A stretch of 60,475 bases of DNA, from assembly GCA_017302455.1 (NCBI GenBank), contig JAFLDO010000031.1:1-60475 (forward strand), written 5' to 3'. The stretch is from Accumulibacter sp. (lineage in GTDB: Bacteria > Pseudomonadota > Gammaproteobacteria > Burkholderiales > Rhodocyclaceae). Both the position numbers and the translations under genes were made by a program. Under the pieces are notes generated by a model that saw only the letters and a program-made list of their open reading frames with translations, had not been told where the DNA came from and ran no database searches. Positions 9,566-48,785 of the stretch are shown here, piece by piece; the first letter of the stretch is position 1, and each line of letters begins with the position of its first letter.

Positions 9566-9584
9566 ACAGCTGTTCCGAGTCGCG

Positions 9585-14209: not shown

Positions 14210-14281
14210 CGCCCGCACCGACCATGGGTCTGCGAAGGTGTGATGAACCGCGACTTTGCTGGCACGGGCTAGTGGTCTTGA

Positions 14282-14368: not shown

Positions 14369-14404
14369 TGCTGGCGCGCGCGGTGCGCGCCGGAAGAGGC
14401 GACG

Positions 14405-14433
14405 ATTATCGCCGATTCTCGGGCGGCCGACAA
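14405..14433 (-). promoter_or_regulatory. Sigma-70 promoter for tRNA-Leu
   Basis: On the minus strand, TTGTCG (14433-14428) and GATAAT (14410-14405) are separated by exactly 17 nt. The predicted start near 14398 is about 30 nt before the mature tRNA 5' end. Confidence 0.65.
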
Positions 14434-21908: not shown

Positions 21909-22910
21909 GGGGCAGTAGGCCGGCGGCAAGGCAATGTGAATCTGGGGAACACCGGGTGCTGGACTGGATCAGACGAAAGCCGTGGCCATCCACGCTGGCC
22001 ACGAGTGCTTCGCACCCCAGGTGCGTTCGACTTCGCCGGCCCGTGGTCGCCCTGGCAGGGTACCGCTGCCAGGGCGATCACAGCGCCTGAACGTTTCTCG
22101 GAATCACGCTCTTCACCCCAGCCGCGTGGGTGCCGGCAGATTGCAACAATGTCCACAATCATCTTGCGGAGAAACAGCAGGAAGGGCTAGAATTTATATA
22201 CTCGATCCCGGTTTCCAGGCATCCGTACTGAGCGCTGTCATGAGGAAAAAAGACTGATGAGGCACGAAAGAAGGCGGCAATTCCTCAGCCCGGGGTGCCC
22301 GCCGACGACCAGCCGGAATCCGTGGTACCGCGACAGCGTCAGGCCGCAGGTGGAACCGGCCCGACTCAACAGCCCCCCGGGAGCGTCCTGTAGTGCTATG
22401 GCGCGCATCGATTGACCGCGAGGAATCGGACGCCGTGCTCCCGCAACAGCACCCTCCGGTCGGGCTTTTCCGTGCCGCCTTTGCCCCACAGCCAACGCTG
22501 GCGCTGCTTGATGCATTCGATCTGCGCACTCGCCGAGTCGCCGACCTTACCAATCCCATCCTGTTGTTTCGTAGAGGCGCCCGACCGGGCGCGCTGATCG
22601 GCCAGTCTGCGCTGCGCACGCCGGCTTGCCGAATCAGCAGCGTCGGCATTCGGGCCGCCCTCCGCGTTGATCGTCTCGACCGGAGGATCCTTCTTTCCCC
22701 TTCAGTACCCGCCGTCAAGCGAGCCGTACGCAACGGTCTTGCTTCGACCGGAGGAACGTCTTCGGGTGCTGGCTCGTATTATCCCCCATTGCCCGGAGCG
22801 CGCGTTTCGGTGCATCGAGACCGTCGGCGTAAGCCGCGCGCGTTCCGGGAGCGGTGTTTTCGGACCCCCTGATGTAGGTGTATTCCCAGCAACGATTACG
22901 GAGGCAACAT
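21909..22910. other. One-kilobase non-coding stretch upstream of the ethylmalonyl-CoA operon
   Basis: No convincing gene. Minus-strand 22402-22720 is open for about 105 codons with plausible composition (segments IECIKQRQRWLWGKGG, LREHGVRFLAVN) but has no start codon after the upstream stop. A different minus frame near 22300 contains GFRLV, so a degraded gene is possible. A weak sigma-70-like pair, TTGCGG and TAGAAT with about 18 nt between, lies near 22165-22195 on the plus strand. The promoter of the downstream operon should be in this region. Confidence 0.45.
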
Positions 22911-24353
22911 ATGAAGCTCACGCTGACCCCTGATGAACTGCATGGCTATTACAACGAGTTGCACGATTCGAATGCCGATTTCAAGTCTCACTATCCAGCG
23001 GATTCCTTTGAGAGACAGCCGGTTCACACCGTTTACGGGGGGGCCAACCTCTTCAAGGCAGGGTTTGCCGGCAAGTTGGGTGAAGTTGCGCTCAAGACGC
23101 TCGACACCTATGCGCCCAATTACCACGTATTTGCCCGTGTGCTGGGTCTGCCGGGCGCCGATGCGCTGCCGACGAACCCCATCTATATCGAAAGTCTGAC
23201 GCGTGCGCTGGAAGCGAATCCCGACTACGTGCGCGAGATCAAGCCGGCCGCCTGGCTGGCCTTCACGGTATACAACCGGGTACTGAAGAAGCTGCAAAGC
23301 GAGCCCATCGAAGACAACCGCATCGACTTCGAGGATGGCTACGGCAACCGCCCGGACGAGGAGGAAGACGGCCATGCCGTCGCGGCTGCCGACGAGGTGG
23401 CCAAAGGCATGAGCGAAAATCTGCTCTCACCGTTTATCGGTATTCGGGTAAAAACCTTTTCGGACGAGTGCAAGGTTCGCTCGATTCGTACCCTGGACAT
23501 CTTCCTGACCCGTTTGTCCGAAAAAACCGGCGGCAAACTGCCGCAGAACTTTATCGTAACGCTCCCCAAGGTCACCACGCCGACTCAGGTTTCCACCTGC
23601 GCGAAGGTACTGGAGAATCTGGAAGCCAGGCTTGGCTTCCCAAAGGATTCGCTGAGAATGGAAATCATGATCGAAACCACGCAGTCGATCATCAACCACA
23701 AGGGCGAAAACACGGTGCCGCTGCTCGTGGCAGCCGCCGGTCACCGCTGCCGTTCAGCGATTTTCGGGACTTATGATTACACGGCGTCGTGCAACATCAC
23801 GGCGGCGCACCAGAGCCACACCCATCCGACCTGCGATTTTGCCCGCCATGTGCTGCAGGTCAGCCTCGCGGGAACCGGCATCACGATCAGCGACGGCGCG
23901 ACCACGAGCATGCCGATCGGACCGCACAAGGCCACCAGGGACGCGCCGCTGTCGCCCCAGCAGATGGATGAGAACCGCGCGGTGGTGCATGGTGCCTGGA
24001 AGCTGCATTATGACAATATCATGCATTCGATGCGCCATGCCTACTATCAGGGCTGGGATCTGAATCCGGGGCAATTGCCGGTGCGTTATGCGGCCGTCGA
24101 CACCTTCTTCCTCAGCGGCCTGCAGGATGCCTCGGCGCGCTTGAACGCTTTCCTCAACAAGGCCGCCCAGGCAACGCTGGTGGGCAACACCTTCGACGAT
24201 GCGGCGACTGGTCAGGGGCTCCTGAACTTCTTCCTGCGTGGGATGGCGTGCGGAGCGATCACCGAGCAGGAAGTGCTGGCGACCGGAATCACACTGGACG
24301 AACTGCGCTCGCGTTCGTTTGTTCGCATCGTCAACAATCGGACCAAAAAGTAG
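22911..24353 (+). CDS. DUF6986-type aldolase/lyase-fold protein (HpcH/HpaI/CitE-like)
   Basis: 480 residues from the ATG at 22911, with GGAGG a few bases upstream. The core DFEDGYGNRPDEEEDGHA, the later MEIMIETTQSI and GTYDYTASCNI resemble the acid-residue and metal-binding loops of HpcH/HpaI/CitE lyases, and the whole fits what I recall of DUF6986 (sometimes labelled phosphoenolpyruvate kinase without good support). Such folds cleave or form C-C bonds of CoA or oxo-acids. Its position as first gene of the ethylmalonyl-CoA operon suggests a malyl-CoA or methylmalyl-CoA related reaction, but that is inference; a true Mcl is encoded at 39066. Confidence 0.72.
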   Translation: MKLTLTPDELHGYYNELHDSNADFKSHYPADSFERQPVHTVYGGANLFKAGFAGKLGEVALKTLDTYAPNYHVFARVLGLPGADALPTNPIYIESLTRALEANPDYVREIKPAAWLAFTVYNRVLKKLQSEPIEDNRIDFEDGYGNRPDEEEDGHAVAAADEVAKGMSENLLSPFIGIRVKTFSDECKVRSIRTLDIFLTRLSEKTGGKLPQNFIVTLPKVTTPTQVSTCAKVLENLEARLGFPKDSLRMEIMIETTQSIINHKGENTVPLLVAAAGHRCRSAIFGTYDYTASCNITAAHQSHTHPTCDFARHVLQVSLAGTGITISDGATTSMPIGPHKATRDAPLSPQQMDENRAVVHGAWKLHYDNIMHSMRHAYYQGWDLNPGQLPVRYAAVDTFFLSGLQDASARLNAFLNKAAQATLVGNTFDDAATGQGLLNFFLRGMACGAITEQEVLATGITLDELRSRSFVRIVNNRTKK

Positions 24354-24385: not shown

Positions 24386-26062
24386 ATGACTGAGGTAAAG
24401 AACGGGATGCAGGTGGCACTGCAGCATCTCGAATCAGCCGACGCAGTGATCAGGAAATCGCTGATCTGGATAAAGCAGCAATGCGCGACCACCAAGGGAG
24501 TCTCGAACGAGAAACTGGACGGGCATCAGATGGCCAGCTTCGATCTGGCGTGGTGTGCGGCTGAGTCGACGGCCGCGCGCTTTGCGGTGGACTATGCCGG
24601 CAAGGTGGTCGCCGCCGGTGCGGCGGGCGCCGGTGCCTGCCTTGAGGAACGAATGGCCCTGGTCTTTTGTGCCGAAGCCTTGCAGAACATTCACCATCGC
24701 CTGTGGGCGCGGCCGCAGAGCTTCGGTCTGAAGGAGGCCGACGTGGCCGCCCTGGCCTCGTCCAGCCTCAGCTACTATTGCCAGACACAACTGGATGCCG
24801 GCAATCTGGAAGCCTTGGGCAGGCAGGTCATCGCGCTGAATGGCGCCAGCGGTGCGTACATGCTGGGTGACGACGCGACGATGATGCAGGACTCGTTCCG
24901 CAAACTGGCAACCAACGTAGTCATGCCGCTGGCCGAGGAGATCCATCGGCACGATCGCATCATTCCCCAGGAAATCCTCGAGCCGCTGACCGAAATGGGC
25001 TGCTTCGGTCTGTCGATTCCCGAACGTTACGGCGGCATCCAGAGCGACGATCATGAAGACAACATGGGGATGATCGTGGTCACCGAGGAGCTTTCGCGCG
25101 GCTCGCTCGGGGGAGCGGGCAGCCTGATTACCCGCCCGGAAATCCTCAGCCGCTCCCTGCTCAAGGGAGGAACGGAAGCACAGCGAGAGAAGTGGTTGCC
25201 GAAGGTAGCCGTCGGTGAACCCTTGTGTGCCATTGCCGTCACCGAACCGGATACCGGCTCCGATGTCGCCGCCATGCGTCTGAAGGCGACGAAGTGCGAG
25301 GGCGGCTGGATACTCGACGGCGTCAAGACCTGGTGCACGATGGCCGGCAAGGCGGGCGTCCTGCTGGTCCTGGCACGCTCCAATCCCGACCGTTCGCTCG
25401 GTCACAAGGGGCTGAGCATGTTCCTGGTCGAAAAGGACTCGTATGACGGACACGATTTCGAGTACCGTCAGCGACAGGGTGGCGTGCTGAGCGGGCGCGC
25501 GATTTCGACCATCGGTTACCGCGGCATGCATTCCTACGAGGTTTTCTTCGACCACGTCTTCGTTCCGGACGAGAACCTGGTGGGCGGGCCGGAAGGCGAA
25601 GGGAAAGGCTTCTATTTCACGATGGCCGGATTTGCCGGCGGGCGCATTCAGACGGCGGCACGCGCCATTGGCGTCATGCAGGCGGCTTTCGAGCGCGCGG
25701 TGTCTTATTCCCAGGAACGACACGCCTTCGGCAAACCGATAGGTGAGTTCCAGCTGACGCTCGTCAAGCTGGCGCGCATGGCGACGCTGCTGACCGTTTC
25801 CCGCCAGTTTACCTACGCGGTCGGGGCCTTGATGGATCAGGGTCAGGGGCAGATGGAAGCCAGCATGGTGAAACTGTTCACCTGCCGCACGGCCGAGTGG
25901 CTCACCCGCGAAGCGATGCAGATTCACGGTGGCATGGGTTATGCCGAGGAGTCGCCCGTCAGTCGGTATTTCCTTGATGCACGCGTGCTGTCGATTTTCG
26001 AGGGAGCCGAAGAAACGCTGGCCCTGAAGGTCATCGCACGCTCTCTTATTGACTCCGTATAG
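24386..26062 (+). CDS. mcd: (2S)-Methylsuccinyl-CoA dehydrogenase
   Basis: 558 residues, longer than ordinary acyl-CoA dehydrogenases (about 380) because of an extra N-terminal helical domain of about 150 residues, as expected of Mcd. The flavin-dependent core has AIAVTEPDTGSDVAAMRLKA, CTMAGKAGVLLVLARS and, near the end, REAMQIHGGMGYAEESPVSRYFLDARVLSIFEG. It oxidises methylsuccinyl-CoA to mesaconyl-C1-CoA and passes electrons to ETF. Its neighbours (mch, ecm, ccr) are the flanking steps of the same pathway, which supports this substrate over a generic acyl-CoA. Start ATG 24386. Confidence 0.93.
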   Translation: MTEVKNGMQVALQHLESADAVIRKSLIWIKQQCATTKGVSNEKLDGHQMASFDLAWCAAESTAARFAVDYAGKVVAAGAAGAGACLEERMALVFCAEALQNIHHRLWARPQSFGLKEADVAALASSSLSYYCQTQLDAGNLEALGRQVIALNGASGAYMLGDDATMMQDSFRKLATNVVMPLAEEIHRHDRIIPQEILEPLTEMGCFGLSIPERYGGIQSDDHEDNMGMIVVTEELSRGSLGGAGSLITRPEILSRSLLKGGTEAQREKWLPKVAVGEPLCAIAVTEPDTGSDVAAMRLKATKCEGGWILDGVKTWCTMAGKAGVLLVLARSNPDRSLGHKGLSMFLVEKDSYDGHDFEYRQRQGGVLSGRAISTIGYRGMHSYEVFFDHVFVPDENLVGGPEGEGKGFYFTMAGFAGGRIQTAARAIGVMQAAFERAVSYSQERHAFGKPIGEFQLTLVKLARMATLLTVSRQFTYAVGALMDQGQGQMEASMVKLFTCRTAEWLTREAMQIHGGMGYAEESPVSRYFLDARVLSIFEGAEETLALKVIARSLIDSV

Positions 26063-26106: not shown

Positions 26107-27294
26107 ATGTCGCAGGCAATTCGTTTCCGACCACAGGTCGAACTGGCCGAAAAGGTGGGCGTGGACCTGAAAAAGGTACGCCATCCCCACTACGGCCGCT
26201 ATCTGGAGGAGTTCGTACCGGGGCAGGTGTTCGTTCACCCGCGCGGTTTCACGTTCCTGCGCGCCCAGATGGAGACTTTCTCCCGGACCTACATGCAGTG
26301 CAATCCGCTTTACCTCAATGACCAGTATGCGCGGGCCAGCGGCTTCTCCGGCCTGCTCGCTTCGCCGCAGATGGTCTTCAACGTCGTCCTTTCGCTGGGC
26401 GTGCAGAACGATTCGGAAAAGGCGATGGCCAACCTGGGTTACTACGATGCCCAGTTCCTGCGGCCGGTCCAGGCCATGGATACCATTCGCTCGCTGACCA
26501 AGGTCATCGACCGCAAGGAGCGCGGCGCGGGCAAGCCCGGCATCGTGACCATACGTACATTGGGCGTCAACCAGAACGGCGAAGTGGTACTGCAGTACGA
26601 GAGGAAGATCATGGTTGCCGGTCAGGGCGACCGTCCGCCAACCACCCCGTTGCCCACGTCGGCCGACGGCCTGATGCCGAGTTTCCCCTGGGTGGACGAT
26701 GCCGATGTGATCCTGCCCGACTTTCCGGAGCGACTCCCCGGCGGCCTCACCGGTCCCAACTCGTGGTTCGAGGATTTCGCCGTCGGCGAGGTCATCGTGC
26801 ACGCCAACGGCAGAACGATAACCGACGAGCATCTGCCGCTGACCTATGCGGTGGGTAATACTCATCCCCTGCATTTCGACCGGGTCTTCAGTTCCGGCTT
26901 GTCGGGCAAGATGAGCGGCGATCCCATCGTCTATGGCGGACTGGTGTTCGCGTGGCTGGAAGGACTGGCCAGCCGCGATGTCAGCGAGAACAGCATCTGG
27001 GAACTTGGTTTTACCGAGGGTTACCACACCCAGCCCTCGATTGCCGGCGATACGGTTGCCGCCCTGTCGCGCGTGTTGGCGGCCGAAGATGCTCCTGGCG
27101 CGTTGGCCCGGCAGTTCGGCGTCGTCAGTCTTCAGCTGATCGGTGTCAAGAACATCAGTGCGGCGAACGCTTTGGCCAAATATGGCGAGGACCTGTTCAT
27201 CAAGGAGAACGACAAGAAAGAGATGGGCAAGGAGAAGATTGATGAGAAGATTTTTGAGATCGAGAGACGTCTCTTGATCAGAAAGAGGAGTTAG
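26107..27294 (+). CDS. mch: Mesaconyl-CoA hydratase, ethylmalonyl-CoA pathway type
   Basis: 395 residues with two MaoC-like hot-dog halves. The first has MQCNPLYLNDQYARASGFSG and the second YAVGNTHPLHFDRVFSS, each in the place of the hydratase Asp/His loop. It hydrates mesaconyl-C1-CoA to 2-methylmalyl-CoA. The C-terminus ends in a Lys/Glu-rich tail (KKEMGKEKIDEKIFEIE). A GAGGAAC leader precedes the ATG. The next gene, ecm, begins 2 nt after its stop, so the two are tightly coupled. A second, only distantly similar mch is encoded at 40157 with Chloroflexus-like sequence. Confidence 0.9.
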   Translation: MSQAIRFRPQVELAEKVGVDLKKVRHPHYGRYLEEFVPGQVFVHPRGFTFLRAQMETFSRTYMQCNPLYLNDQYARASGFSGLLASPQMVFNVVLSLGVQNDSEKAMANLGYYDAQFLRPVQAMDTIRSLTKVIDRKERGAGKPGIVTIRTLGVNQNGEVVLQYERKIMVAGQGDRPPTTPLPTSADGLMPSFPWVDDADVILPDFPERLPGGLTGPNSWFEDFAVGEVIVHANGRTITDEHLPLTYAVGNTHPLHFDRVFSSGLSGKMSGDPIVYGGLVFAWLEGLASRDVSENSIWELGFTEGYHTQPSIAGDTVAALSRVLAAEDAPGALARQFGVVSLQLIGVKNISAANALAKYGEDLFIKENDKKEMGKEKIDEKIFEIERRLLIRKRS

Positions 27295-27296
27295 TC

Positions 27297-29315
27297 ATGG
27301 TTGCCGCCCGGAAGAATCGGGATCAGCCCTGGTTGATGCGGACCTATAGCGGTCACAGCTCGGCCAAGGCATCCAACACCCTCTATCGGACCAATCTCGC
27401 CAAAGGCCAGACAGGTCTCTCGGTAGCCTTCGACCTGCCGACGCAGACCGGTTACGACGCCGACAGCCCTCTGGCCAAGGGCGAGGTCGGCAAGGTCGGC
27501 GTGCCCATATCACACATCGAGGACATGGATCAGTTGTTCGATCAGATCCCTCTCGATCAGATGAACACTTCGATGACCATCAATGCGACGGCCGCATGGC
27601 TGCTGTCGCTGTACATCGGCCTGGCGCAACGACGCGGGATCGACCCGACCCGGCTGAGCGGCACCACCCAGAACGATATCATCAAGGAGTATCTCTCACG
27701 CGGTACCTACATCTATCCGCCAGGTGCGTCGATGCGCCTGATCGCCGATACGATCAACTACACCGTCAAGCATGTTCCGAAGTGGAATCCCACCAATATC
27801 TGTAGCTACCATTTGCAGGAGGCGGGAGCAACGCCCGTTCAGGAACTGGCCTACGCCCTGTGCACCGCGATGGCGGTTCTCGACCGCGTCAAGGCTTCCG
27901 GCGAGATCAAGCCGGAGGCTTTCCCGCAAGTCGTCGAGCGCATCTCGTTCTTTGTCAATGCCGGCATGCGCTTCGTCGAGGAATGCTGCAAGCTCAGGGC
28001 ATTCGGTGAAATGTGGGACGAACTGACTTTGACCCGCTACAAGGTCGAGGACCCACGACTTCGCCGGTTCCGTTATGGCGTACAGGTCAACTCCCTGGGG
28101 CTGACCGAGGCGCAACCGGAAAACAATGTCCAGAGAATCGTTCTGGAGATGTTGGCGGTGACGCTTTCCAAGCGCGCACGGGCCCGCGCCATCCAGCTCC
28201 CGGCGTGGAACGAGGCAATGGGTTTGCCGCGCCCGTGGGACCAGCAGTGGGCGCTGCGCATGCAGCAGGTGATGGCCTTCGAAACGGATCTGCTGGAATA
28301 CGAGGACATCTTCGATGGTTCGCCGGTCATTGCCGCCAAGGTCAAGGCACTGATCGAGGGCGCCAAGAGGGAAATCGAGAATGTCGAAGCCCAGGGTGGC
28401 ATCATTGCCGCGATCGAGTCCGGCTATGTCAAGCGCGAACTGGTCGGTAGCCACATGAACCGCTTGCGCGCCATCGAGTCGGGTGATCTCAAGATCATCG
28501 GCGTCAACTGCTTCCAGGAAACGGCCGAATCGCCGCTGACTGTCGGCAGTGATGGCGGCATCATGAAGACCGATCCGGCCGCTGAGCGTGAGCAGATCGA
28601 AAGGCTGCAGGCGCATCGCAGAAGCCGAAACGACAGCGAGGTCCGAGCCGCCCTGCAAGGACTCACCGATGCCGCCAAGAGCGGCGAGAACATCATGCCA
28701 AGTTCGATTCGCTGTGCTCTGGCGGGAGTCAGCACCGGCGAATGGGGAGACTCGCTGCGCGGGGTCTTCGGTGAGTTCAGACCACCGACGGGAATCGATA
28801 TCGCCATCGACAGCCGCGAGGTACTCGGCAAGAAGGATCAGGTCACCGATCTCAGGGAGCGCGTCGCCAACACCGGCAACGCCTTGGGTCGTCCACTCAA
28901 ACTACTGGTCGGCAAACCCGGACTCGACGGACATTCCAATGGCGCAGAGCAGATCTCCGTGAAGGCCAGAGACGTCGGCTTCGAGGTCGTCTACGACGGC
29001 ATCCGGTTGACGCCGCAACAGATTGCCCAGGCCGCTCAGGAGGAAGGCGTGCATGTGGTGGGCCTGTCGATACTGTCAGGCAGCCATATGGAACTGGTGG
29101 AGTCTGTCCTGCAGGAACTGCGCCTGCGCGATCTGGCAAGCGTGCCGGTAATTGCCGGCGGCATCATCCCGCGCGAGGATGCCGAACGGCTGATGGCGCT
29201 CGGTGTGCGCGCCGTCTATACACCGAAGGACTTCAGTCTCAACGCCATCATGGGGGATATCGTGGATGTGATCCGCGAGTGCAACGGGCTCGACCGGATT
29301 GGCTTGCTGCATTGA
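27297..29315 (+). CDS. ecm: Coenzyme B12-dependent ethylmalonyl-CoA mutase
   Basis: 672 residues. The N-terminal TIM barrel contains RTYSGHSSAKASN and GLSVAFDLPTQTGYD (the acyl-CoA entry region of mutases) and SGTTQNDIIKEYLSRGTYIYPP. The C-terminal B12 domain has DGHSNGAEQ with the cobalt-binding H546 (D544-x-H546-x-x-G). It converts ethylmalonyl-CoA to methylsuccinyl-CoA. Unlike methylmalonyl-CoA mutases of the two-subunit type, it is a single chain with its own B12 domain. Operon context with mcd, mch and ccr favours ethylmalonyl-CoA as substrate. A GTPase chaperone gene follows 7 nt later. Confidence 0.94.
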   Translation: MVAARKNRDQPWLMRTYSGHSSAKASNTLYRTNLAKGQTGLSVAFDLPTQTGYDADSPLAKGEVGKVGVPISHIEDMDQLFDQIPLDQMNTSMTINATAAWLLSLYIGLAQRRGIDPTRLSGTTQNDIIKEYLSRGTYIYPPGASMRLIADTINYTVKHVPKWNPTNICSYHLQEAGATPVQELAYALCTAMAVLDRVKASGEIKPEAFPQVVERISFFVNAGMRFVEECCKLRAFGEMWDELTLTRYKVEDPRLRRFRYGVQVNSLGLTEAQPENNVQRIVLEMLAVTLSKRARARAIQLPAWNEAMGLPRPWDQQWALRMQQVMAFETDLLEYEDIFDGSPVIAAKVKALIEGAKREIENVEAQGGIIAAIESGYVKRELVGSHMNRLRAIESGDLKIIGVNCFQETAESPLTVGSDGGIMKTDPAAEREQIERLQAHRRSRNDSEVRAALQGLTDAAKSGENIMPSSIRCALAGVSTGEWGDSLRGVFGEFRPPTGIDIAIDSREVLGKKDQVTDLRERVANTGNALGRPLKLLVGKPGLDGHSNGAEQISVKARDVGFEVVYDGIRLTPQQIAQAAQEEGVHVVGLSILSGSHMELVESVLQELRLRDLASVPVIAGGIIPREDAERLMALGVRAVYTPKDFSLNAIMGDIVDVIRECNGLDRIGLLH

Positions 29316-29322
29316 CAGGTCG

Positions 29323-30372
29323 ATGACTTCACCCACTCTTCCCGATCCTGAGCAGCTAGCCGCACGGATACTGCGCGGGGAAAGGGCTGCGGTCGCCAGC
29401 GGCCTGAACCTGCTGGACAACAAGCTGGCTGAGGCGCGCAACCGTTCGGCTCGCTTGCTGGCGGCTCTTTCCGGCGAGCGCTGGCTCAGTCGCGGTCACC
29501 TGATCGGGGTCACGGGTCCTCCCGGAGCCGGCAAGTCCTCGCTCGTCTCCGCCATGATTCGGGAGTGGCGCCTCTCCGGCAAGACCGTCGGAGTGCTGGC
29601 AGTCGATCCCTCCAGTCGCCCCGAACTGGGCGGTGGCGCCTTGTTGGGCGATCGCATTCGTATCAAGAATTCGTCTCACGACGAAGGTCTCTTCATCCGC
29701 TCGCTGGCCAGTCGGAATCAGTTGGGCGGCGTCGCCACCGAGGTTTGGCCGATGAGTTGGCTGATGTTGGCCTGTTTCGATATTGTCATCATCGAGACGG
29801 TGGGCGTCGGCCAAACCGAGATCGATATTGCCGAGATTGGCGATACGGTCTGTTATGTCGCCCAGCCGGCCTCCGGTGACACAATCCAGTATCTGAAGTC
29901 GGGTATCATCGAGATTCCGGATATTTTCGCGGTCAACAAGTGTGACCTTGGTGCCCCGGCGCGCAAAACGGCGAGCGAAATTGGCCGGAGCGCGCCCAGG
30001 CACGATCGCCGGGAGAATTGGGATTACCCGGTGTGTCTGGTGAGCGCGACGATGAATACAGGAATCAGGCAATTGCAGGAGCATTGCGAGAGACACCGGG
30101 AGTTTCTCGCCAATGCCGGCTTGCTCGGCAAACTGCGCACGCGCCATCAGAGCGCCTGGGTAGTACGCTTGCTGAAAGAGGAATTCGGAACTTTTGGCCT
30201 CGAACTTGCCGGCGGCCGTGCTGTTGTCGGCGAGCGGCTGAGGGAAAATCCATCCAGCCAGTTTGCAGAGTACGAGCGCCTGCGGCAACATATTCTTTCC
30301 AGATTCATGTCGGTAAATCAACCGAGCAGTCTAACCAAGAAGGAGCATCTTGATGAGCAAACAATTGTATGA
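29323..30372 (+). CDS. meaB: MeaB/ArgK-family G3E GTPase, mutase chaperone
   Basis: 349 residues. P-loop [13 protein letters not shown], then [25 protein letters not shown], the switch region [18 protein letters not shown] and the base-specificity motif NKCD. MeaB loads and protects the adenosylcobalamin of acyl-CoA mutases. It follows ecm directly, so Ecm is the likely client. The SSRPELGGG segment differs slightly from the usual SSxxxGGA pattern. An in-frame start 24 nt upstream overlaps ecm; ATG 29323 is preferred. Its last 20 nt overlap the start of ccr. Confidence 0.92.
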
Positions 30373-32107
30373 ACTAGGTGATAGGCCTCCCCTGGGCGAA
30401 GTTCCGGAGAAAATGCACGCCTGGTTGATCCGCGCGGACCGTTTCGGCAAGCCGACGGAGGCGTTTCAGAAGGAAGTGGTGAATACCCCTGCCATCGCCG
30501 ACGACGAAGTGCTGGTGCACGTGATGGCGGCGGGAATCAACTACAACAACGTCTGGGCGGGCCTCGGCTTTCCGGTCAATGTCATCGCTGCCCGTAACAA
30601 GGGCGGCGAGCCTGAAGACTTCCACATCGGCGGCAGCGACGCGTCCGGCATCGTCTACGCGATCGGCAAGGACGTGACCAACGTCAAAGTGGGCGACGAA
30701 GTGGTAATGCACTGCGGCCAATGGAACCGTAATTGCGAGTGGGTCCAGAACGGCGGCGATCCGATGTACTCGCCCTCTTTCAAGATTTGGGGTTACGAAA
30801 CCAATTACGGTAGTTTCGCCCAGTTCACCAAGGTCCAGGGCCACCAGTGCATGCCGAAGCCAAAGCACATGAACTGGGAAGAAGCGGCGGCCTATACGCT
30901 GGTCGCCGCTACGGCCTGGCGGATGCTCCATGGCTGGGGCGCCAACTCCATCAAGAAGGGGGACGTCGCTCTGATCTGGGGCGGCGCGGGCGGCCTCGGT
31001 TCGATGGCGATCCAGATCGCCAAGGCGGTCGGCGCGACCTCCGTGGCCATGGTGTCAGGCGAGGACAAGTTCGACTACTGCATGAAATTGGGCGCCAAAG
31101 GCTGCATCAATCGCAACGACTTCGATCACTGGGGCATGTTGCCGCACTGGAAGGACAACGCGGGCTATGCAAAGTGGCTGAAGGGCGTGCGGGGCTTCGG
31201 TGCCAAGATCTGGGAAGTTCTCGGCGAGAAGCGCGCGCCGAACATCGTCTTCGAACATCCTGGCGAGACCACCATCCCTTCTTCGATTTTCGTTTGCGAA
31301 ACCGGCGGTATGGTCGTCGTTTGCGCCGGTACCTCGGGCTATAACGCTACCGTCGATTTGCGCTATCTGTGGATGCGGCAGAAGCGCCTGCAAGGCTCAC
31401 ATTTCGCCAATGCCGTGCAGTGCAACGAAATGAACGAACTGGCGCTGCGTGGCCTGATCGATCCCTGCATGTCGCGGGCTTTCACCTACGAAGAGTTGCC
31501 GCTTGCCCACCAACTGATGCATGACAACAAACATCCACACGGCAACATGTCGGTGCTGATTGGTGCCACCGAGTTCGGCCTGGGCACCAGCGGCAAGCCG
31601 CCCGTGGCGATCGTTCATCCGACGCTGCCCAAGGGCGACGTGCATACCACGCCGCATCCCTATCCGATGTCCACCCCGCTGCCGGATATCGCCGAGGGCG
31701 AAGCGATCACTATTGCCGACGACGGCAGCAAGGTCAGCGACCTGATGCATCGCGGCATCATTTCCTGTACGCCGGACGATGTCCTCGGGACGGTGGCCAA
31801 GATCATGGTGGACAAGGAGATCCACGCGGTAGTGGTGATGGATGGACAAGGCAAGGCGATCGGCGTCGTATCGCAGACCGATATGGTTCTGGCGCGGCAG
31901 GGCCGGAGCCCGCAGGAAGCGCGCTCGATGCGCGCCGGGGACATCATGACCCCTGGCTGTGCAACATGCGATGCCGAGATGTTGTTGAGCGACGCGGTCA
32001 GCCTGATGACGGGCCGGCGCATGCATCGCCTGGTGGTAACGGAAAACGATCGGCCTGTGGGCGTCATCTCCATGACCGACGTGGTGCGCAAGATCATCGG
32101 CGAGTAA
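30353..32107 (+). CDS. ccr: Crotonyl-CoA carboxylase/reductase fused to a C-terminal CBS-domain pair
   Basis: 584 residues, about 150 longer than usual Ccr (about 430). Residues 1-411 are the medium-chain reductase: [10 protein letters not shown] at 63-72, WGYETN at 146-151, the NADPH Rossmann loop [10 protein letters not shown], and QGSHFA with H350. E149 and H350 lie in the segments I recall as CO2-binding in studied Ccr enzymes. After a Pro-rich linker (about 412-455) come two CBS repeats, about 461-513 and 530-584, each with the ribose-binding type motif (GVVSQTD, GVISMTD). CBS pairs bind AMP, ATP or similar ligands. The enzyme reductively carboxylates crotonyl-CoA to ethylmalonyl-CoA, the entry to the pathway. 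AGGAG sits 7 nt before the ATG. Confidence 0.95.
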
Positions 32108-32241: not shown

Positions 32242-33219
32242 ATGCAAGCCATTGTCTGCCACGAACTTGGCGGTCCCGCGGCGTTACGCCTGGATGACGT
32301 TCCGGAACCGCGCCCCGGACCCGGGCAGGTACGGATCCGGGTCCGCGCCTGTGGAGTCAATTTTGCCGACAGCCTGATCACCCGCGGCCAGTATCAGAAG
32401 CAACCACAACCACCATTCAGTCCCGGCTTCGAGGTTTCCGGAGAGGTGCTGGAACTTGGCAGCGGCGTACAAGGGATCGCCATTGGCGATCGCCTGATCG
32501 CCATGACAGCGCACGGTGGCTATGCCCAACAAGTCATTGCCGACACGAAGCGCTGCGTGCCGATGCCGGCGGCGATGTCATGGGAACACGGCGCGGCCTT
32601 TCCCGTGGTGTTCGGCACCTCGCATGTCGCCTTGTCGCATCGGGCGCGGTTACGGCCAGGAGAGACGCTCGTGGTGCATGGTGCCTCGGGCGGGGTCGGT
32701 CTGACCGCCGTCGCCATCGGCAAGCAGTTGGGAGCGACGGTTATCGCCACAGCGAACGGCCCCGAGAAACTCGAAGTAGCGCGCGCACACGGCGCCGACC
32801 ATCTGATTGATTCGAGTCGTGAGGACGTGCGCACGCGAATCAAGGAGTTAACCGCTGGTCGCGGTGCGGATGTCGTCTACGATCCTGTAGGTGGCGACTT
32901 GTTCGCGGCTTCGCTGCGCAGCATCGCGTTTGAAGGGCGCCTACTGGTCATTGGCTTTGCAGGCGGTAGCGTGCCGCAAATTCCCGCCAATCATCTTCTG
33001 GTCAAGAATGTGGACGTGATTGGTCTCAACTGGCCGGCTTATGCGGAATTGAATCCGCAGGTGATGACCGAGAGTTTCCGGACACTGATCCAGTGGTATC
33101 TGGAGGGTGCGATCAAACCGCATGTCTCCGCCACTTATCCGCTGAAACAGGCTGTCGATGCGCTCAATCACCTGATTAGTCGCAAGTCCACGGGTAAAGT
33201 CGTTATTACTCCGGATTAG
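32242..33219 (+). CDS. NADPH:quinone oxidoreductase-like (zinc-free medium-chain reductase)
   Basis: 325 residues. N-terminal GroES-like fold MQAIVCHELGGPAALRLDDVP, then VNFADSLITRGQYQ, and a nucleotide-binding loop HGASGGVGLTAVAIGKQLGA. No catalytic-zinc cysteines are seen. The family reduces quinones, enones or enoyl-CoA. Near ccr and a PhaJ-type hydratase, an acyl-CoA related role (for example acrylyl-CoA or another enoyl-CoA) is possible but unproven. The start at 32242 matches the usual MQAI beginning; in-frame sequence further upstream overlaps ccr and is not homologous. Confidence 0.85.
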   Translation: MQAIVCHELGGPAALRLDDVPEPRPGPGQVRIRVRACGVNFADSLITRGQYQKQPQPPFSPGFEVSGEVLELGSGVQGIAIGDRLIAMTAHGGYAQQVIADTKRCVPMPAAMSWEHGAAFPVVFGTSHVALSHRARLRPGETLVVHGASGGVGLTAVAIGKQLGATVIATANGPEKLEVARAHGADHLIDSSREDVRTRIKELTAGRGADVVYDPVGGDLFAASLRSIAFEGRLLVIGFAGGSVPQIPANHLLVKNVDVIGLNWPAYAELNPQVMTESFRTLIQWYLEGAIKPHVSATYPLKQAVDALNHLISRKSTGKVVITPD

Positions 33220-33513: not shown

Positions 33514-33963
33514 ATGAATCCCCAAAACGGTTACGACATCGAAGACTTGTCGGTCGGCATGAGCGCAGAGATCGCCAAGACCATTACGGATGCGGACATC
33601 GTCCTCTTTGCCGGCGTGTCCACGGACGTCAATGCGGTGCATATGGATGAAGATTTTGCGAAGACGACGATGTTTGGCGGCCGCATCGCGCACGGCATGT
33701 TGTCGGCGAGCCTGATTTCAGCGGTACTCGGCAATCGTCTGCCCGGTCCTGGCACGATCTACATGAGCCAGTCCTTGCGCTTCCGTGCGCCGGTGCGGCC
33801 GGGTGACACGGTTCATGCCAAGGTGACAGTCAAGGAAGTCGTTGCCGAAAAGTGCCGTGTCGTAGTCGATACCGTGTGCACCGTCGGCGACAAGGTGGTC
33901 ATCGACGGCGAAGCGACGCTGATGACCACCTCGCGGCAAAAACGCGAAGCAGCCGGCAAGTAG
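33514..33963 (+). CDS. phaJ: (R)-specific enoyl-CoA hydratase, MaoC/PhaJ type
   Basis: 149 residues, single hot-dog domain. The catalytic dyad is probably D38 and H43 in STDVNAVHMDEDFA, followed by GRIAHGML and the FRAPVRPGDTV segment. It would interconvert crotonyl-CoA and (R)-3-hydroxybutyryl-CoA, tying the ethylmalonyl-CoA pathway to polyhydroxybutyrate. GAAAGGA precedes the ATG. About 294 nt separate it from the upstream reductase; this gap contains no gene. Confidence 0.85.
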   Translation: MNPQNGYDIEDLSVGMSAEIAKTITDADIVLFAGVSTDVNAVHMDEDFAKTTMFGGRIAHGMLSASLISAVLGNRLPGPGTIYMSQSLRFRAPVRPGDTVHAKVTVKEVVAEKCRVVVDTVCTVGDKVVIDGEATLMTTSRQKREAAGK

Positions 33964-35027: not shown

Positions 35028-35058
35028 TTGCGCCCATGACCGTGTTTGCCCATATACT
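35028..35058 (+). promoter_or_regulatory. Possible promoter of the smtA-mch operon
   Basis: TTGCGC (35028-35033) and CATATA (35051-35056) are 17 nt apart; the overlapping TATACT is the better -10 but gives 19 nt. It lies in the divergent region with meh. Confidence 0.3.
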
Positions 35059-35140
35059 GTGGGGGTTATGCCGGTGCCGGGCCTGGCGCAGGGTAAGGGA
35101 GTTGGGAGGTTTTCCGGCTCGACAGTCGGGAGGATGGGCC

Positions 35141-36502
35141 ATGAAAGAGGAAGCTGCTTCAACGAAGTCCGCCGCGTCGCGGCCAGCCCCCACGGGCACT
35201 GGGGCGCCAACACCAACCGGGCCTGCAGCAGTTAACCCCGCAGCGAACGCCCAGTTGTCGCAGAATCCTCTGGAGCAGGATCAGGAGCAGTCAGCGGACA
35301 ACGACCAACTACCGATGAGCGGCTTGCGCGTCATCGATGTCGGGACTTTTCTGGCCGGGCCCTATGCGGCATCCATCCTGGGTGAGTTCGGCGCCGAGAT
35401 TCTGAAAGTCGAGCATCCGATCGCCGGTGATCCGATGCGGCACTTCGGAACGGCCTCCAAACGCCACGATGCGACCCTGGCCTGGCTCAGCGAAGGCCGC
35501 AACAAGAAATCGGTCACCCTCGACCTCCGCCAGCAGGAGGGTGTCGAGCTGTTCCTCAAGCTGGTGGCCAAGTCGGACGTGCTGATCGAGAATTTCCGGC
35601 CGGGAACGATGGAGGAATGGGGACTCGGCTGGGACGAGTTGAGCAAGGCCAACCCCGCACTCGTGATGCTACGGGTCTCCGGCTACGGGCAGACCGGACC
35701 GTATCGTCGACGCTCGGGTTTCGCGCATATCGCCCATGGCTTTGCCGGTCTGTCCTACCTCGCCGGCTTTCCGGGCGAGACGCCAGTACTGCCGGGAACG
35801 GCGCCGCTTGGCGACTACCTGTCCAGCCTTTATGGCGCTATCGGCATCCTGCTGGCATTAAGGCACCGCGAGGCGACCGGCGAAGGGCAAATCGTCGATA
35901 TCGGAATTTACGAGGCGGTTTTCCGCCAGATGGACGAGATCGCCGCCGCTTACGGACTGTTCGGCAAGGTCCGGCAACGCGAAGGTGCCGGCAGTTTCGT
36001 CGCCGTTCCGCACGGACACTTCCGGACTGTTGATGACAAATGGGTCGCCATCGCGTGCACCACGGACAAGATGTTCGAACGTTTCGCCGCGGCGATGGAG
36101 AAGCCCGAGCTCGCTGCGGCCGACCGTTACGGCGACCAACGCAAGCGTCTGGCAGCGCGTGACGAGGTCAACCGGATCGTCATCGAATGGGTGGGTTCGC
36201 TGACCCGCAACGAGGTGATGCAGCGCTGTATTGATGGTGAGGTACCGATCGGCAAGCTCAACAGCATCGCCGACATGTTCGAGGATGAGCATTTCAAAGC
36301 CCGCGGCAATCTCGCCCGCCTCACCGAGGAGGGCCTGGGGGAAGTGGTGATTCCGGGCGTCGTGCCGACGCTTTCCGAGACCCCGGGGCGGATTTCGAAT
36401 CTCGGGCCACCGCTGGGCAACGCCACCTATGAAGTCCTGCGCGAACTACTCGGTATTTCGGCGCAGGAGATCAAGCGACTGCGCCAGCGCAAGATCATCT
36501 GA
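35141..36502 (+). CDS. smtA: Succinyl-CoA:L-malate CoA-transferase, SmtA-like subunit (class III)
   Basis: 453 residues from the ATG at 35141. A low-complexity Ala/Pro/Gln-rich N-terminus of about 55 residues precedes the CaiB/BaiF fold: [68 protein letters not shown]. The N-terminal extension and wording match my memory of Chloroflexus SmtA. The presumed catalytic Asp is in the DIGIYEAVF region. With SmtB it would make malyl-CoA from malate and succinyl-CoA. An in-frame start 105 nt upstream encodes unrelated sequence. Confidence 0.85.
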
Positions 36503-36525
36503 CCGGCCTTTTCACGAGAACTCCC

Positions 36526-37752: not shown

Positions 37753-37776
37753 CCACAAGCGGGGTGATTGGAGACA

Positions 37777-38997
37777 ATGGACGGAATTCTCAAGGGCCTG
37801 CGCGTCGTCGAGGGCTCGGCCTTCGTTGCCGCGCCACTCGGCGGCATGACTCTCGCCCAACTCGGCGCGGACGTCATCCGCTTCGACCCCATCGGCGGCG
37901 GCCTCGACTACCGTCGCTGGCCACTCACCCTCGACGGTCGGCACAGCCTGTTTTGGGCCGGACTGAACAAGGGCAAGCGTTCGATAGCCGTCGACCTTCG
38001 CCTGCCCCGCGGGCAGGAGTTGCTGACCCAGCTGATCTGCGCGCCCGGGGACCATGCAGGCCTCTTCAGCACCAATTTTCCGGCCAAAGGCTGGCTTGCC
38101 TATGAAGCGCTGCAAGCGCACCGGCAGGACTTGATCATGGTGAACCTGACGGGGCGGCGGGACGGTGGGTCCGAAGTAGACTACACGCTGAACCCGCAGC
38201 TCGGCCTGCCCCTGATGACCGGACCAACGAGTTCCCCGGAAGTCGTCAACCACGTCTTTCCCGCCTGGGACTTCATCAGCGGTCAAATGATCGCCTTGGG
38301 CCTCCTTGCTGCCGAACGGCACCGGCGGCTGACCGGCGAAGGACAACTGGTGCGTCTGGCCTTGAAGGATGTGGCGCTGGCCATGCTCGGGAATTTCGGC
38401 ATGCTCGCCGAAGCCATGGTCAATGGGGCCGATCGGCCGCGCCAGGGCAACTACCTCTACGGCGCCTTTGGCCGCGACTTCGGCACGCTCGACGGCCGGC
38501 GTCTGATGGTCGTCGGCCTGACCGGCATGCAATGGCGCCGCCTCGTCAAGGCCACCGGTCTCCGGGAGCCAATCAGCGAACTGGCTGCGCGACTCGGCCT
38601 CGACTTCGACGACGAGGGCAATCGCTATCGCGCACGGCAGGAAATTGCCCGATTGTTCGAACCCTGGTTCCATGCCCGCACGCTGGCGGAAGCCGCGCTG
38701 ACCCTCGATGCCCACGGCGTCACCTGGGGCCCCTACCGCAGCGTGCGGGAGGAAGTGGCCGCCGACCCGGATTGCTCCACCGACAATCCGATGTTCACAC
38801 TCACCGAGCAGCCAGGCATCGGGCGCTACCTGATGCCGTCGACGCCGCTCGACTTTGCCGGCGTACCCCGTCTGCCGGCGATGCCGGCGCCCAGACTCGG
38901 CGAACACACGGATCAGATTCTGCTCGACATCCTCGGCTTGAGCGAGGCCGAAGTCGGCCGTCTGCACGACGCGCGCGTCGTCGCCGGACCTACCTGA
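37777..38997 (+). CDS. mct: Mesaconyl-CoA C1-C4 CoA transferase
   Basis: 406 residues. It moves CoA within mesaconate from C1 to C4, an unusual intramolecular class III transfer. The N-terminus [20 protein letters not shown], then [40 protein letters not shown] and [16 protein letters not shown] are nearly the same as the Chloroflexus enzyme as I recall it. The ATG at 37777 with GGAG just before matches that start; a TTG 9 nt earlier is rejected. It sits between smtB and mcl. Strong identity to a protein from another phylum suggests transfer. Confidence 0.92.
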
Positions 38998-39065
38998 GCC
39001 GGTCGCCGGCAAACCTGCCCGCGACCGCAGAAACAACCAGCCTTCTTTCTACCAGGGAAACTGCC

Positions 39066-40121: not shown

Positions 40122-40156
40122 GAAAGAGCTTGGTCGGCACAACGAGGAGGCACCTG

Positions 40157-41215: not shown

Positions 41216-41401
41216 CGTCCAGCGCGGGCGGCTACCGCGCCGCCCGCATGAACCCGGCCAGCCAATGGCAGGCCCGGCCACCGGCCCGGAGCGACGGCCC
41301 GCGACTGCCGCCCATACGCAAAGGTATCGTTGTTTTCAATCGATTCGAACTAAGCTATGCTGCGCGGGCGTCAAAAAACGATGGAAAACAATGGAGGAAA
41401 C

Positions 41402-43244: not shown

Positions 43245-43255
43245 GGAGACCCACG

Positions 43256-45891: not shown

Positions 45892-45995
45892 GCGCGGCGT
45901 GGTTATGAGGCCGCGGAGCTTGTCACCCGGCGCAACGACAGAAGCGCAACAATCAATCCCGACCCGGTGCCGTTGTCTGGGTCACCCACTCTGGG

Positions 45996-46033
45996 GACAC
46001 TTCGGGCATAACGCTCGAAGTGTCTTTTCCTTC
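45996..46033 (+). terminator. Hairpin/terminator between the oxidoreductase operon and ppdK
   Basis: GACACTTCG pairs with CGAAGTGTC (9 bp, 11-nt loop) and is followed by TTTTCCTTCTT. The ppdK ribosome site starts only about 15 nt later, so it may end the upstream transcript or sit in a ppdK leader. Confidence 0.6.
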
Positions 46034-46055
46034 TTCCCCAACCCGCGAGGTATGT

Positions 46056-48785
46056 ATGCCAACTGAAACAAAGAACGTCTACGTGTTTGGTGCCGCCCGA
46101 ACCGACGGCGACGCCAAGATGAAGAATATACTCGGAGGCAAAGGCGCCAACCTTGCCGAAATGTGCCGACTGGGAATCGCAGTACCTCCCGGTTTCACGG
46201 TCAGTACCGAAGCCTGCACCGTCTATACCGAGCAGGGCAAGGACGCCGTGTTCAAGCTGATCGAGGCTGAAGTCTTGCAGGGCGTGGCTTTCGTTGAACA
46301 GGAAATGGGGAAGAATTTCGGCGACTCGTCGGATCCGCTGCTACTGTCGGTGCGTTCGGGTTCGCGCGCGTCGATGCCAGGCATGATGGACACCATCCTC
46401 AACCTCGGCCTCAATGACGAGGCGGTGGTCGGACTGGCTCGCAAGGCCAACAACGAGCGTTTTGCCTGGGACTCCTATCGCCGCTTCGTGCAGATGTACG
46501 GTGACGTCGTGATGGGCCTCAAGCCGGTATCGAAGGAAGATCACGATCCCTTCGAAGTCGTCATCGACATGCTCAAGGAGAAGAAGGGTGTTGAACTCGA
46601 TACCGATCTCGACACCGACGACCTGAAGGAGTTGGTGCTGCGTTTCAAGGGCTTGATTCGTGCCCGCGTCGGCCGTGAGTTCCCGACCGATCCCTGGGAA
46701 CAGCTCTGGGGGGCAGTGAATGCGGTCTTTCAGAGCTGGAATAACGACCGCGCCAAGGTATACCGCGAGCTGAACGATATCCCGGATTCGTGGGGCACCG
46801 CCGTCAACGTCCAGGCCATGGTCTTCGGCAATCTGGGCGACAACAGCGGCACCGGCGTCGCCTTCACGCGTGACGCAGGGACTGGTGAGGACCTGTTCAA
46901 CGGCGAGTTCCTGGTCAATGCCCAGGGTGAAGACGTCGTCGCCGGTACCCGCACGCCGCAACAGGTCACTCTCGAGGGTTCGCGCCGCTGGGCCAAACTG
47001 GCGATGGTCAGCGAAGACGAGCGACGGACCAGGTTCCCGTCGCTCGAGGAACTGATGCCCGACATCTACCAGCAGCTCCTGCAGGCCGAAACCAAGCTCG
47101 AAAAGCACTACTCCGACATGCAGGATGTCGAGTTCACGATCCAGGAAGGCCGCCTGTGGATGCTGCAAACCCGCAACGGCAAGCGCACTGGTTCAGCGAT
47201 GGTGCGCATCGCCATGGAAATGCTGCGCCAGGGCATCATCGATGAGAAGGAAGCCTTGCGCCGCGTCGACCCGGAGCGCCTCAACGAACTCCTGCACCCG
47301 GTTTTTGACCCGATCGAGATCAAGAAGGCACGTTCCATCGCGCACGGCCTGCCGGCTTCGCCCGGCGCCGCGACCGGTCAGATCGTCTTCTTCGCCGACG
47401 AAGCCGAGGAATGGGTCAGAAAGGGCAAGGACGTGATCCTGGTACGCCAGGAAACCTCTCCTGAGGACCTGCGCGGAATGAGTGTCGCCAAGGGAATTCT
47501 GACCGCCCGCGGCGGGATGACCTCGCACGCAGCCGTTGTGGCACGTGGCATGGGTAAGTGCTGCATCTCTGGCGCTGGCGCGGTGCGCGTCGATTACCAT
47601 GCACGCACGATGTCGGTCGGCAACGAGACTTGGGCGGAAGGAGACTGGCTTTCGCTCGACGGTTCGACCGGCGAAGTCTACCTGGGCCAGGTAGCCACGA
47701 AGGAAGCGGAACTGACCGGCGACTTCGGAACGCTGATGGATCTGGCCGATCATCACAAGAAACTGGCCGTGCGCGCCAACGCCGATACGCCCGACGATGC
47801 CAGGGCGGCACGCACCTTCGGTGCCAAGGGTATCGGCCTGTGCCGTACCGAGCACATGTTCTTCGAGGGGGAACGTATCAAGGCGGTTCGGGAAATGATC
47901 CTTGCTGACGACGAAGCCGGACGGCGCCGCGCGCTGGCCAAGCTGCTGCCGATGCAGCGTGGCGACTTCGAAGGACTGTTCCGCGAGATGAGCGGCCTGG
48001 CGGTCACCATTCGCCTGCTCGACCCGCCGCTCCACGAGTTCGTTCCTCACGATGAAGCCAACCAGAAGATCATGGCTCACGAGATGAACGTTCCACTGGG
48101 CGTGATCAAGATGCGCGTCGACGACCTGCACGAATTCAACCCGATGATGGGTCATCGCGGCTGCCGCCTCGGTATCAGCTACCCGGAGATCACCGAAATG
48201 CAGACGCGGGCGATCCTCGAAGCCGGTCTGAACATGAAGGCGAAGGGTTTCGATGTCAAGGCCGAAATCATGATTCCGCTGGTCGGCACCGTTCGCGAAT
48301 TCAACGCTCAGGCGCGTGTCATCCGTCAGACCGCAGCGGCCGTTTTCCATGAGCGCGGCGAGGCACTCGACTACCTGCTCGGGACGATGATCGAAACCCC
48401 TCGTGCCGCCCTGATCGCCGACAGTATCGGCCAGCAGGCGCAGTTCTTCTCCTTCGGCACCAACGACCTGACGCAAATGACCATGGGTTTTTCGCGCGAC
48501 GACGCCGGCAAGTTTCTGCCGAGCTATCTGAAAGATGGCATGTACGAGCGCGACCCCTTCCAGTCGATCGACCAGAAGGGCGTCGGCCTGCTGGTGAAGA
48601 TGGCCGTCGAGAAAGGTCGTTCGGTCCGCCCGAGCATCAAGCTGGGCGTCTGCGGGGAGCACGGAGGCGACCCGGCATCGATCGAGTTCTTCCACCGCAG
48701 CGGTCTCGACTACGTGAGCTGCTCGCCGTTCCGGGTGCCGATCGCCCGGCTGGCGGCTGCCCAGGCAGCCATCAACAACGAGTAG
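46056..48785 (+). CDS. ppdK: Pyruvate, phosphate dikinase
   Basis: 909 residues from the ATG at 46056 (MPTETKNVYVFG) with GAGG before it. Motifs: LGGKGANLAEMCRLGIAVPPGFT in the ATP-grasp domain, SVRSGSRASMPGMMDTILNLG, the phosphohistidine loop GGMTSHAAVVARGMGK (His near 491), and the PEP/pyruvate barrel with FFSFGTNDLTQMTMGFSRDD and CGEHGGDPAS. It interconverts pyruvate + ATP + Pi and PEP + AMP + PPi. Directly downstream of the 2-oxoacid oxidoreductase it offers a route from pyruvate to gluconeogenesis, or the reverse under PPi supply. Confidence 0.97.
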   Translation: MPTETKNVYVFGAARTDGDAKMKNILGGKGANLAEMCRLGIAVPPGFTVSTEACTVYTEQGKDAVFKLIEAEVLQGVAFVEQEMGKNFGDSSDPLLLSVRSGSRASMPGMMDTILNLGLNDEAVVGLARKANNERFAWDSYRRFVQMYGDVVMGLKPVSKEDHDPFEVVIDMLKEKKGVELDTDLDTDDLKELVLRFKGLIRARVGREFPTDPWEQLWGAVNAVFQSWNNDRAKVYRELNDIPDSWGTAVNVQAMVFGNLGDNSGTGVAFTRDAGTGEDLFNGEFLVNAQGEDVVAGTRTPQQVTLEGSRRWAKLAMVSEDERRTRFPSLEELMPDIYQQLLQAETKLEKHYSDMQDVEFTIQEGRLWMLQTRNGKRTGSAMVRIAMEMLRQGIIDEKEALRRVDPERLNELLHPVFDPIEIKKARSIAHGLPASPGAATGQIVFFADEAEEWVRKGKDVILVRQETSPEDLRGMSVAKGILTARGGMTSHAAVVARGMGKCCISGAGAVRVDYHARTMSVGNETWAEGDWLSLDGSTGEVYLGQVATKEAELTGDFGTLMDLADHHKKLAVRANADTPDDARAARTFGAKGIGLCRTEHMFFEGERIKAVREMILADDEAGRRRALAKLLPMQRGDFEGLFREMSGLAVTIRLLDPPLHEFVPHDEANQKIMAHEMNVPLGVIKMRVDDLHEFNPMMGHRGCRLGISYPEITEMQTRAILEAGLNMKAKGFDVKAEIMIPLVGTVREFNAQARVIRQTAAAVFHERGEALDYLLGTMIETPRAALIADSIGQQAQFFSFGTNDLTQMTMGFSRDDAGKFLPSYLKDGMYERDPFQSIDQKGVGLLVKMAVEKGRSVRPSIKLGVCGEHGGDPASIEFFHRSGLDYVSCSPFRVPIARLAAAQAAINNE

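Follow-up and report, generated by a model that had tools for sequence, protein, structure and literature searches.

The CBS part of CBS-PPase and of the Trypanosoma GMP reductase is not C-terminal. In both proteins, CBS domains share a chain with an enzyme and are read out by nucleotides (PMC11172384, PMC7160140; statements on these and the other papers cited draw on parts of their text), and CBS-PPase is inhibited by AMP and ADP and activated by ATP (PMC11172384). AcuB of Bacilli, an energy-charge sensor built on a CBS pair, uses an Asp in each site to hold the ribose, a His to bridge the α-phosphates and an Arg to bridge the β-phosphates; it is a stand-alone protein that has an ACT domain and inhibits a deacetylase (PMC13121692).

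Here we describe ccr-CBS, a gene of Accumulibacter sp. (GCA_017302455.1) in which a crotonyl-CoA carboxylase/reductase (Ccr) continues into a C-terminal CBS pair. It lies in the window, by which we mean the whole stretch of 60,475 nucleotides that was analysed. The protein resembles known Ccr (TIGR01751; PDB 4gi2, 3hzz and AntE 4y0k) in its full-length family match, its pocket positions and its ethylmalonyl-CoA (EMC) operon, but the ten PDB sequences that match at E ≤ 1e-50 are 410–467 aa long, and ccr-CBS adds a linker and CBS pair of 171 residues. With AcuB it shares a CBS pair of the same fold, the ribose Asp in both sites and a tie to acetate assimilation (PMC13121692); in contrast, its pair belongs to the same chain as the metabolic enzyme, and Pfam (E ≤ 0.001) finds no ACT domain after it. 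The enzymes of CBS-PPase and GMP reductase differ from Ccr. The preliminary description knew of no described allosteric Ccr of this type, and within the open-licence full-text literature, which leaves out most subscription journals, we likewise found no Ccr with CBS domains described among the papers listed, nor any paper on a CBS domain and Accumulibacter together. Ccr and the CBS pair are each known; their combination was not seen among those papers.

The fused gene and its protein

The gene occupies 30353..32107 of the forward strand, and its 584 codons run from ATG to TAA with no internal stop, preceded by AAGGAG. The open reading frame as called (30350–32107) yields a 585-aa reading that begins three bases before this ATG. 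The preliminary description had claimed a complete reductase continuing in frame into two CBS repeats, and the domain searches bear this out: in a single protein, a linker connects a complete Ccr to two CBS repeats (PF00571), and at E ≤ 0.001 Pfam returned ADH_N, ADH_zinc_N and CBS only. Searches for the architecture recovered 65 distinct fused proteins of 582–602 aa, and a Candidatus Accumulibacter aalborgensis record matches the fused protein at 93% over residues 1–585.

The reductase part (residues 1–413; 30353..31591, forward strand) matches the AntE and Ccr structures of the PDB and scored 553.4 bits with TIGR01751 over residues 18–413 of the 585-aa reading, against a curated cut-off of 378.55 (hmmscan). 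It is the only one of 11 TIGR01751 matches in the genome above that cut-off, which gives the genome a single such Ccr. The CO2-pocket residues, which we take to be Asn, Phe/Tyr, Glu and His, with identity and roles from the K. setae Ccr work, were placed by alignment to structure 3hzz. All four positions (N63, Y148, E149 and H350) are kept in 65/65 fused proteins, as expected from the earlier claim of intact segments for CO2 handling; at Y148, 3hzz has Phe and 4gi2 has Tyr like ccr-CBS. Among the 47 unfused proteins aligned, the E149 position holds Gln in 10 and Asp in one, and the N151 position holds Pro in 17. Unfused relatives with Gln at E149 or Pro at N151 may be non-carboxylating or use another substrate. 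A working Ccr of the EMC pathway is the best explanation of ccr-CBS.

The Pro-rich linker (residues 414–458; 31592..31726, forward strand) is mostly of low model confidence and is partly conserved, reading LPxxDVHxTPxPYPxSxPLP at 80% of the 65 fused proteins. It leads into CBS repeat 1 (residues 459–514; 31727..31894) and CBS repeat 2 (residues 528–584; 31934..32104), both on the forward strand, which form two PF00571 stretches at 87.3 bits against a cut-off of 24 (hmmscan). Each repeat contains the G-h-h-S/T-x-x-D ribose-phosphate motif of CBS domains (PMC11172384), as GVVSQTD (residues 504–510) and GVISMTD (residues 570–576). These are the ‘TD’ motifs that had been called intact, and their putative ribose-binding Asp residues, D510 and D576, are invariant in 65/65 fused proteins. 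Invariance extends to seven of the eight G/S/T/D motif positions, the remaining one having Thr in 64 proteins and Ser in one; in the rest of the CBS region it covers 9/120 positions (Fisher p 9e-7, a guide only, as the rows are related). At the second x of the motif, T509 is found in 65/65 and T575 in 64/65, with Ser in one; M574 is a first x. Ahead of the second motif, H558-R559 is invariant in 65/65. Position 491 holds His in 63 of the fused proteins, ccr-CBS included, and Arg in the other two. These His and Arg residues would fit phosphate binding as in AcuB, in a match of pattern rather than of superposed structures.

Modelled alone, the CBS pair reached a mean pLDDT of 92.5 and matched 445 PDB chains at E ≤ 0.001, with TMq of 0.72–0.88 over the 50 matches listed. 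Those listed include AcuB with AMP, ADP and ATP, CBSX2 with AMP, IMPDH with ATP and ppGpp, and the KdsD CBS pair; a sequence search also finds AMPK gamma (E 8e-5 to 5e-4). A paralogous gene as the source of the CBS part was rejected, the next-best CBS match in the genome being only 33% identical. In the full-length model (mean pLDDT 70.1), whose linker and parts of the reductase are of low confidence, the sensor is not seen to touch the active site. Purifying selection acts on the CBS part: median dN/dS values were 0.077 for Ccr, 0.131 for CBS and 0.196 for the linker (253 pairs, from 23 of the 65 fused genes).

Operon and genomic context

The gene belongs to a tight operon on the forward strand. 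This opens with a DUF6986 protein gene (22878..24353; PF22484, 578 bits, with weak HpcH/HpaI and malate-synthase-like matches) and continues with mcd, encoding a 558-aa (2S)-methylsuccinyl-CoA dehydrogenase (24386..26062; assigned from acyl-CoA dehydrogenase domains, context, length and operon conservation), mch for mesaconyl-CoA hydratase (26107..27294; PF19315), ecm for ethylmalonyl-CoA mutase (27297..29315; PF01642 and PF02310, with context and length) and a meaB-like GTPase gene (29299..30372; PF03308). After ccr-CBS follow a PIG3-type quinone/enoyl reductase-like gene (32242..33219; TIGR02824 262 bits, below the cut-off of 296.8; start codon inferred) and a PhaJ-like MaoC-type hydratase gene (33514..33963; PF01575). 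The ecm and meaB frames overlap, and the end of the meaB frame overlaps the start of ccr by 20 bases. The EMC setting proposed for the enzyme holds, as ccr shares its operon with ecm, mcd, mch and meaB; no gene was assigned as mcl or epi. The DUF6986 protein is a candidate C–C lyase or thioesterase of the pathway, and its gene stays near ccr-CBS in SAR324, Propionivibrio and an Anaerolineae MAG. Upstream of the operon, 17706–21908 encodes a 1400-aa SNF2-family helicase.

EMC partners also lie near ccr-CBS in many Competibacteraceae loci, two Chromatiales/Gammaproteobacteria MAGs, SAR324 and elsewhere, and the PIG3-like gene adjoins it in many Competibacteraceae loci too. They are absent from the fetched flanks of five fused copies (L068, L069, L071, L081 and L130), two of which, L068 and L069, are extra copies in Contendobacter and Competibacter MAGs.

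Just after the operon, 35036–48785 carries a partial set of 3-hydroxypropionate bicycle genes, pyruvate synthase and pyruvate phosphate dikinase (PPDK; 46020..48785, forward strand; TIGR01828, 1323 bits). The bicycle genes are mct, a 2-methylfumaryl-CoA isomerase gene outside the fusion (37768..38997, forward strand; TIGR04253 898 bits, cut-off 725), two other CoA-transferases III, an HpcH/HpaI lyase and a second mesaconyl-CoA hydratase (MC_hydratase)-like gene; pyruvate synthase is encoded as alpha, beta and gamma subunits with a PorD-fused NAD(P)-binding protein. A partial bicycle has already been reported in Accumulibacter and Competibacter (PMC6593406). This gene set could convert acetyl-CoA and CO2 to pyruvate by way of mesaconyl-CoA: mesaconyl-C1-CoA from the EMC pathway could pass through Mct to citramalyl-CoA and on to acetyl-CoA and pyruvate, which PPDK could direct to glycogen.

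We searched 18 genomes with TIGR04253. Of the 13 with the fusion, five scored above the cut-off (G000, G001, G004, G010 and G586), four reached 609–697 bits (G765, G435, G438 and G1419), the SAR324 genomes G430 and G432 reached 517–531 bits, and the Defluviicoccus and Anaerolineae genomes gave weak matches. The link between EMC and Mct is therefore not general.

Isocitrate lyase matched in the window's genome at both profile ends within one 489-codon frame, so the EMC and glyoxylate routes can coexist; the two have been reported together for type I Accumulibacter (PMC12604563). Across 12 genomes, both profile ends matched in G000, L045 (its last piece in another frame), L057, L060 and the unfused L089 genome; L077, L079, L081 and L083 each gave one short weak match, and L071, L087 and L103 none. 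That the fusion always replaces the glyoxylate route is ruled out by these matches for Accumulibacter and Competibacteraceae. The preliminary description had cast the switch as a choice between C5 assimilation and polyhydroxybutyrate. Given isocitrate lyase, the bicycle genes and a possible path from mesaconyl-CoA to pyruvate, that choice may be wider.

Distribution of the fusion

Within the genus, the fusion was found end to end in 23 of 28 genomes, and the other five had no match; among 33 relatives outside the genus none matched at E ≤ 1e-60. The five Ccr-less genomes are G006, G007, G009, G018 and G024, one of them rated 100% complete, and in four of the five Mct exceeds its cut-off.

Five group samples with 1353 genomes contained 286 with a Ccr-like match, of which 11 were fused among the matches listed, a count that falls to 6/281 without the five search centres, all fused and chosen for carrying the fusion or part of it. 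By sample, fused genomes made up 3/4 of those with a match in the window's own class (369 genomes), 4/121 in the class of Defluviicoccus (385), 1/12 in the phylum of the Anaerolineae MAG (251), 2/6 in SAR324 (52) and, at a looser threshold of 1e-40, 1/143 among the matches listed in the class of a Kineosporiaceae MAG (296). The one fused genome of this last sample is the Kineosporiaceae MAG itself, and its three copies, at 77–84% identity, look like contamination. In every sample but SAR324, scoring took in the 3 to 5 best candidates of each genome, and the census scored CBS fusions, so that a Ccr with another C-terminal domain would escape it. A separate search of genome contigs kept the best 80 of 126 relatives, at 79 distinct loci, of which 57 match to residue 579 or beyond, 21 match in the reductase only and one (L103) is cut by a contig end; this list favours the fusion because the query was the fused protein. 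The fusion is a minority form, rare among Ccr and scattered over several phyla. The architecture thus recurs without being universal.

Hosts include Accumulibacter, Competibacter/Contendobacter, Propionivibrio aalborgensis, Defluviicoccus and other Rhodospirillales, Chromatiales, SAR324 and an Anaerolineae MAG. The feast-and-famine setting first proposed for the fusion fits Accumulibacter, Competibacter, Defluviicoccus and P. aalborgensis, which share it, but does not extend to all hosts: the MAGs of SAR324, Chromatiales and Rhodospirillales that carry it are, judging habitats from names, probably not sludge storage bacteria, and a trait of sludge only is unsupported.

Competibacter-like ccr-CBS also occurs in MAGs labelled Kineosporiaceae and Synechococcaceae (L148 in G437, L103 and L080), as probable binning errors. 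G765 carries a tandem pair of fused genes (L129, 4903–6705 and 6851–8656) with the motif Asp kept in both, and L049 has two fused copies (8001–9752 and 13995–15746).

Origin of the fusion and movement between operons

A quick tree was built from the reductase parts of 112 proteins, of which 65 are fused and 47 unfused (L002, L084 and L103 dropped, L080 outside the set); on it the fused rows need two changes, which the starred branches force. The unfused rows inside the fused group are Hahella L089 and L134, which could represent one loss of the CBS part; tblastn with the window's CBS region (E ≤ 1e-8) found no separate CBS gene beside L089 (17 kb) or L134 (5.5 kb). In a careful tree of 46 of the 112 rows, the best topology also needs two changes, 8% of 200 bootstrap trees need one, and the topology test does not reject uniting all fused proteins in one clade (AU p 0.461). 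The data are thus explained by a single fusion, whether or not one loss followed.

The operon partners give a different history. In the reductase tree of 24 taxa, Accumulibacter and Competibacter form one clade (100/100) and a grouping of Accumulibacter with SAR324 is rejected (AU p 0.0015), whereas in the Ecm tree of the same taxa Accumulibacter joins SAR324 (100/100) and the grouping with Competibacter is rejected (AU p 6e-8, in a set with a long L089 branch). Mcd (19 taxa) points weakly in the same direction as Ecm (p 0.036). Identities to the window's proteins follow suit: four Competibacteraceae loci (L051, L057, L065 and L067) show 85–88% for Ccr, 47–50% for MeaB, 71–72% for Ecm and 65–67% for Mcd (L057 has no Mcd), a fifth (L072) shows 82, 48, 68 and 64%, and SAR324 (L083, L085) shows 73–74% for Ccr, 56–57% for MeaB, 77% for Ecm and 69–70% for Mcd. 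From this conflict and these identities, ccr-CBS, perhaps with its PIG3-like neighbour, was probably swapped into an EMC operon that was already in place, a move between distantly related bacteria. In the reductase tree of 24 taxa, the Accumulibacter rows fall inside those of Competibacter (forks 85/87 and 87/94), which hints at transfer from Competibacter to Accumulibacter, a direction that the 112-row tree leaves undecided. The swap is supported for the reductase part only, because the CBS part is too short to resolve a tree of its own: there Accumulibacter and Competibacter need two changes each, and Accumulibacter with SAR324 is not rejected (p 0.197).

Proposed function and alternatives

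We lean modestly towards Ccr-CBS being an adenylate-responsive Ccr, of either sign. The narrower expectation that AMP and ADP lower, and ATP restores, reductive carboxylation is tentative. The enzyme would have acquired its C-terminal Bateman module (the CBS pair) as an adenine-nucleotide sensor. Ccr is a tetramer. In this tetramer, CBS pairs on linkers of about 45 residues could pair into CBS discs, and ligand at the two putative ribose sites would set the freedom of the catalytic dimers to open and close. As the linker is mostly of low confidence in the full-length model, the pair is likely tethered and would act by joining subunits. When energy charge is low, storage and redox balance would keep the crotonyl-CoA and NADPH; when it is high, C4 units released from polymer would be carboxylated to ethylmalonyl-CoA and then feed malate, succinyl-CoA or pyruvate. 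We infer the ligand, sign, catalytic effect and physiology of the CBS part, and the sign is the weakest step.

An adenylate ligand, with AMP and ADP damping and ATP permitting, is proposed because of the precedent of CBS-PPase and AcuB. PPDK, whose reaction makes AMP, is also encoded in the window, which we count in favour of adenylate control, together with the conserved motifs, the purifying selection and the increased expression of EMC genes at low phosphate in type I Accumulibacter (PMC12604563). Against it, CBS pairs of the same fold bind other ligands (the KdsD pair, and IMPDH with ATP and ppGpp), the close unfused pair L089 and L134 indicates that such a Ccr can do without CBS, and the five fused copies mentioned above have no EMC partners in their fetched flanks.

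The versatility of CBS pairs, reflected in the KdsD and IMPDH fold matches, also leaves an appreciable though minor chance that the pair senses SAM, NAD(P)H, ppGpp or a CoA ester. Hydrophobic Ile and Met at the second x of the motif have been noted in SAM-binding CBS domains (PMC11172384), but Thr stands there in both repeats of ccr-CBS, and the His/Arg pattern, as pattern only, suits phosphate binding as in AcuB (PMC13121692).

Adenylate sensing could also work with the opposite sign, low energy charge switching Ccr on for NADPH use and propionyl-CoA supply in the anaerobic phase (PHV, redox balance), which we regard as rather unlikely. Studies of transcripts and metagenomes assign EMC to redox balance and to the supply of propionyl-CoA (PMC8956781, PMC12604563), the pathway has been proposed as a PHV feed in Contendobacter (PMC8956781), and in type I Accumulibacter its transcripts rise when phosphate is limiting (PMC12604563). 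Transcript changes are silent on allostery, however, and both precedents run the other way: AMP inhibits CBS-PPase (PMC11172384), and AcuB with AMP bound leads to low synthesis of acetyl-CoA (PMC13121692).

A purely structural or tethering role, in oligomer stability or in docking to MeaB, Ecm or the neighbouring reductase with no ligand control, seems improbable. CBS pairs dimerise and the linker is partly conserved, but the invariance of the CBS region is concentrated in the ligand motifs. An artefact joining two genes, a concern raised at the outset, can be set aside, as can a frameshift or decaying fusion, despite shorter open frames in two MAG copies (L080 and L084, both among the 57 loci matched through the CBS part), because the same junction recurs in 65 distinct intact proteins, some on closed or very long contigs, with dN/dS well below 1.

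Discussion

Ccr-CBS may be an energy-charge-gated, CO2-fixing enoyl-CoA reductase that moved by single-gene exchange between EMC operons of polyphosphate- and glycogen-accumulating bacteria and steers stored C4 units between polymer and C5 assimilation and onward, in Accumulibacter through Mct, citramalyl-CoA cleavage and PPDK, to pyruvate and glycogen. This joint reading is possible, though short of probable. In P. denitrificans, transcriptional, post-translational or allosteric control of the division of flux between two acetyl-CoA routes was named as future work (PMC6747724), and this question becomes directly testable with a Ccr that naturally carries its own sensor. Ccr-CBS could also offer a switchable carboxylase for carbon-fixation design. 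For wastewater treatment, it provides a molecular lead on how PAO and GAO divide carbon among PHA, glycogen and growth.
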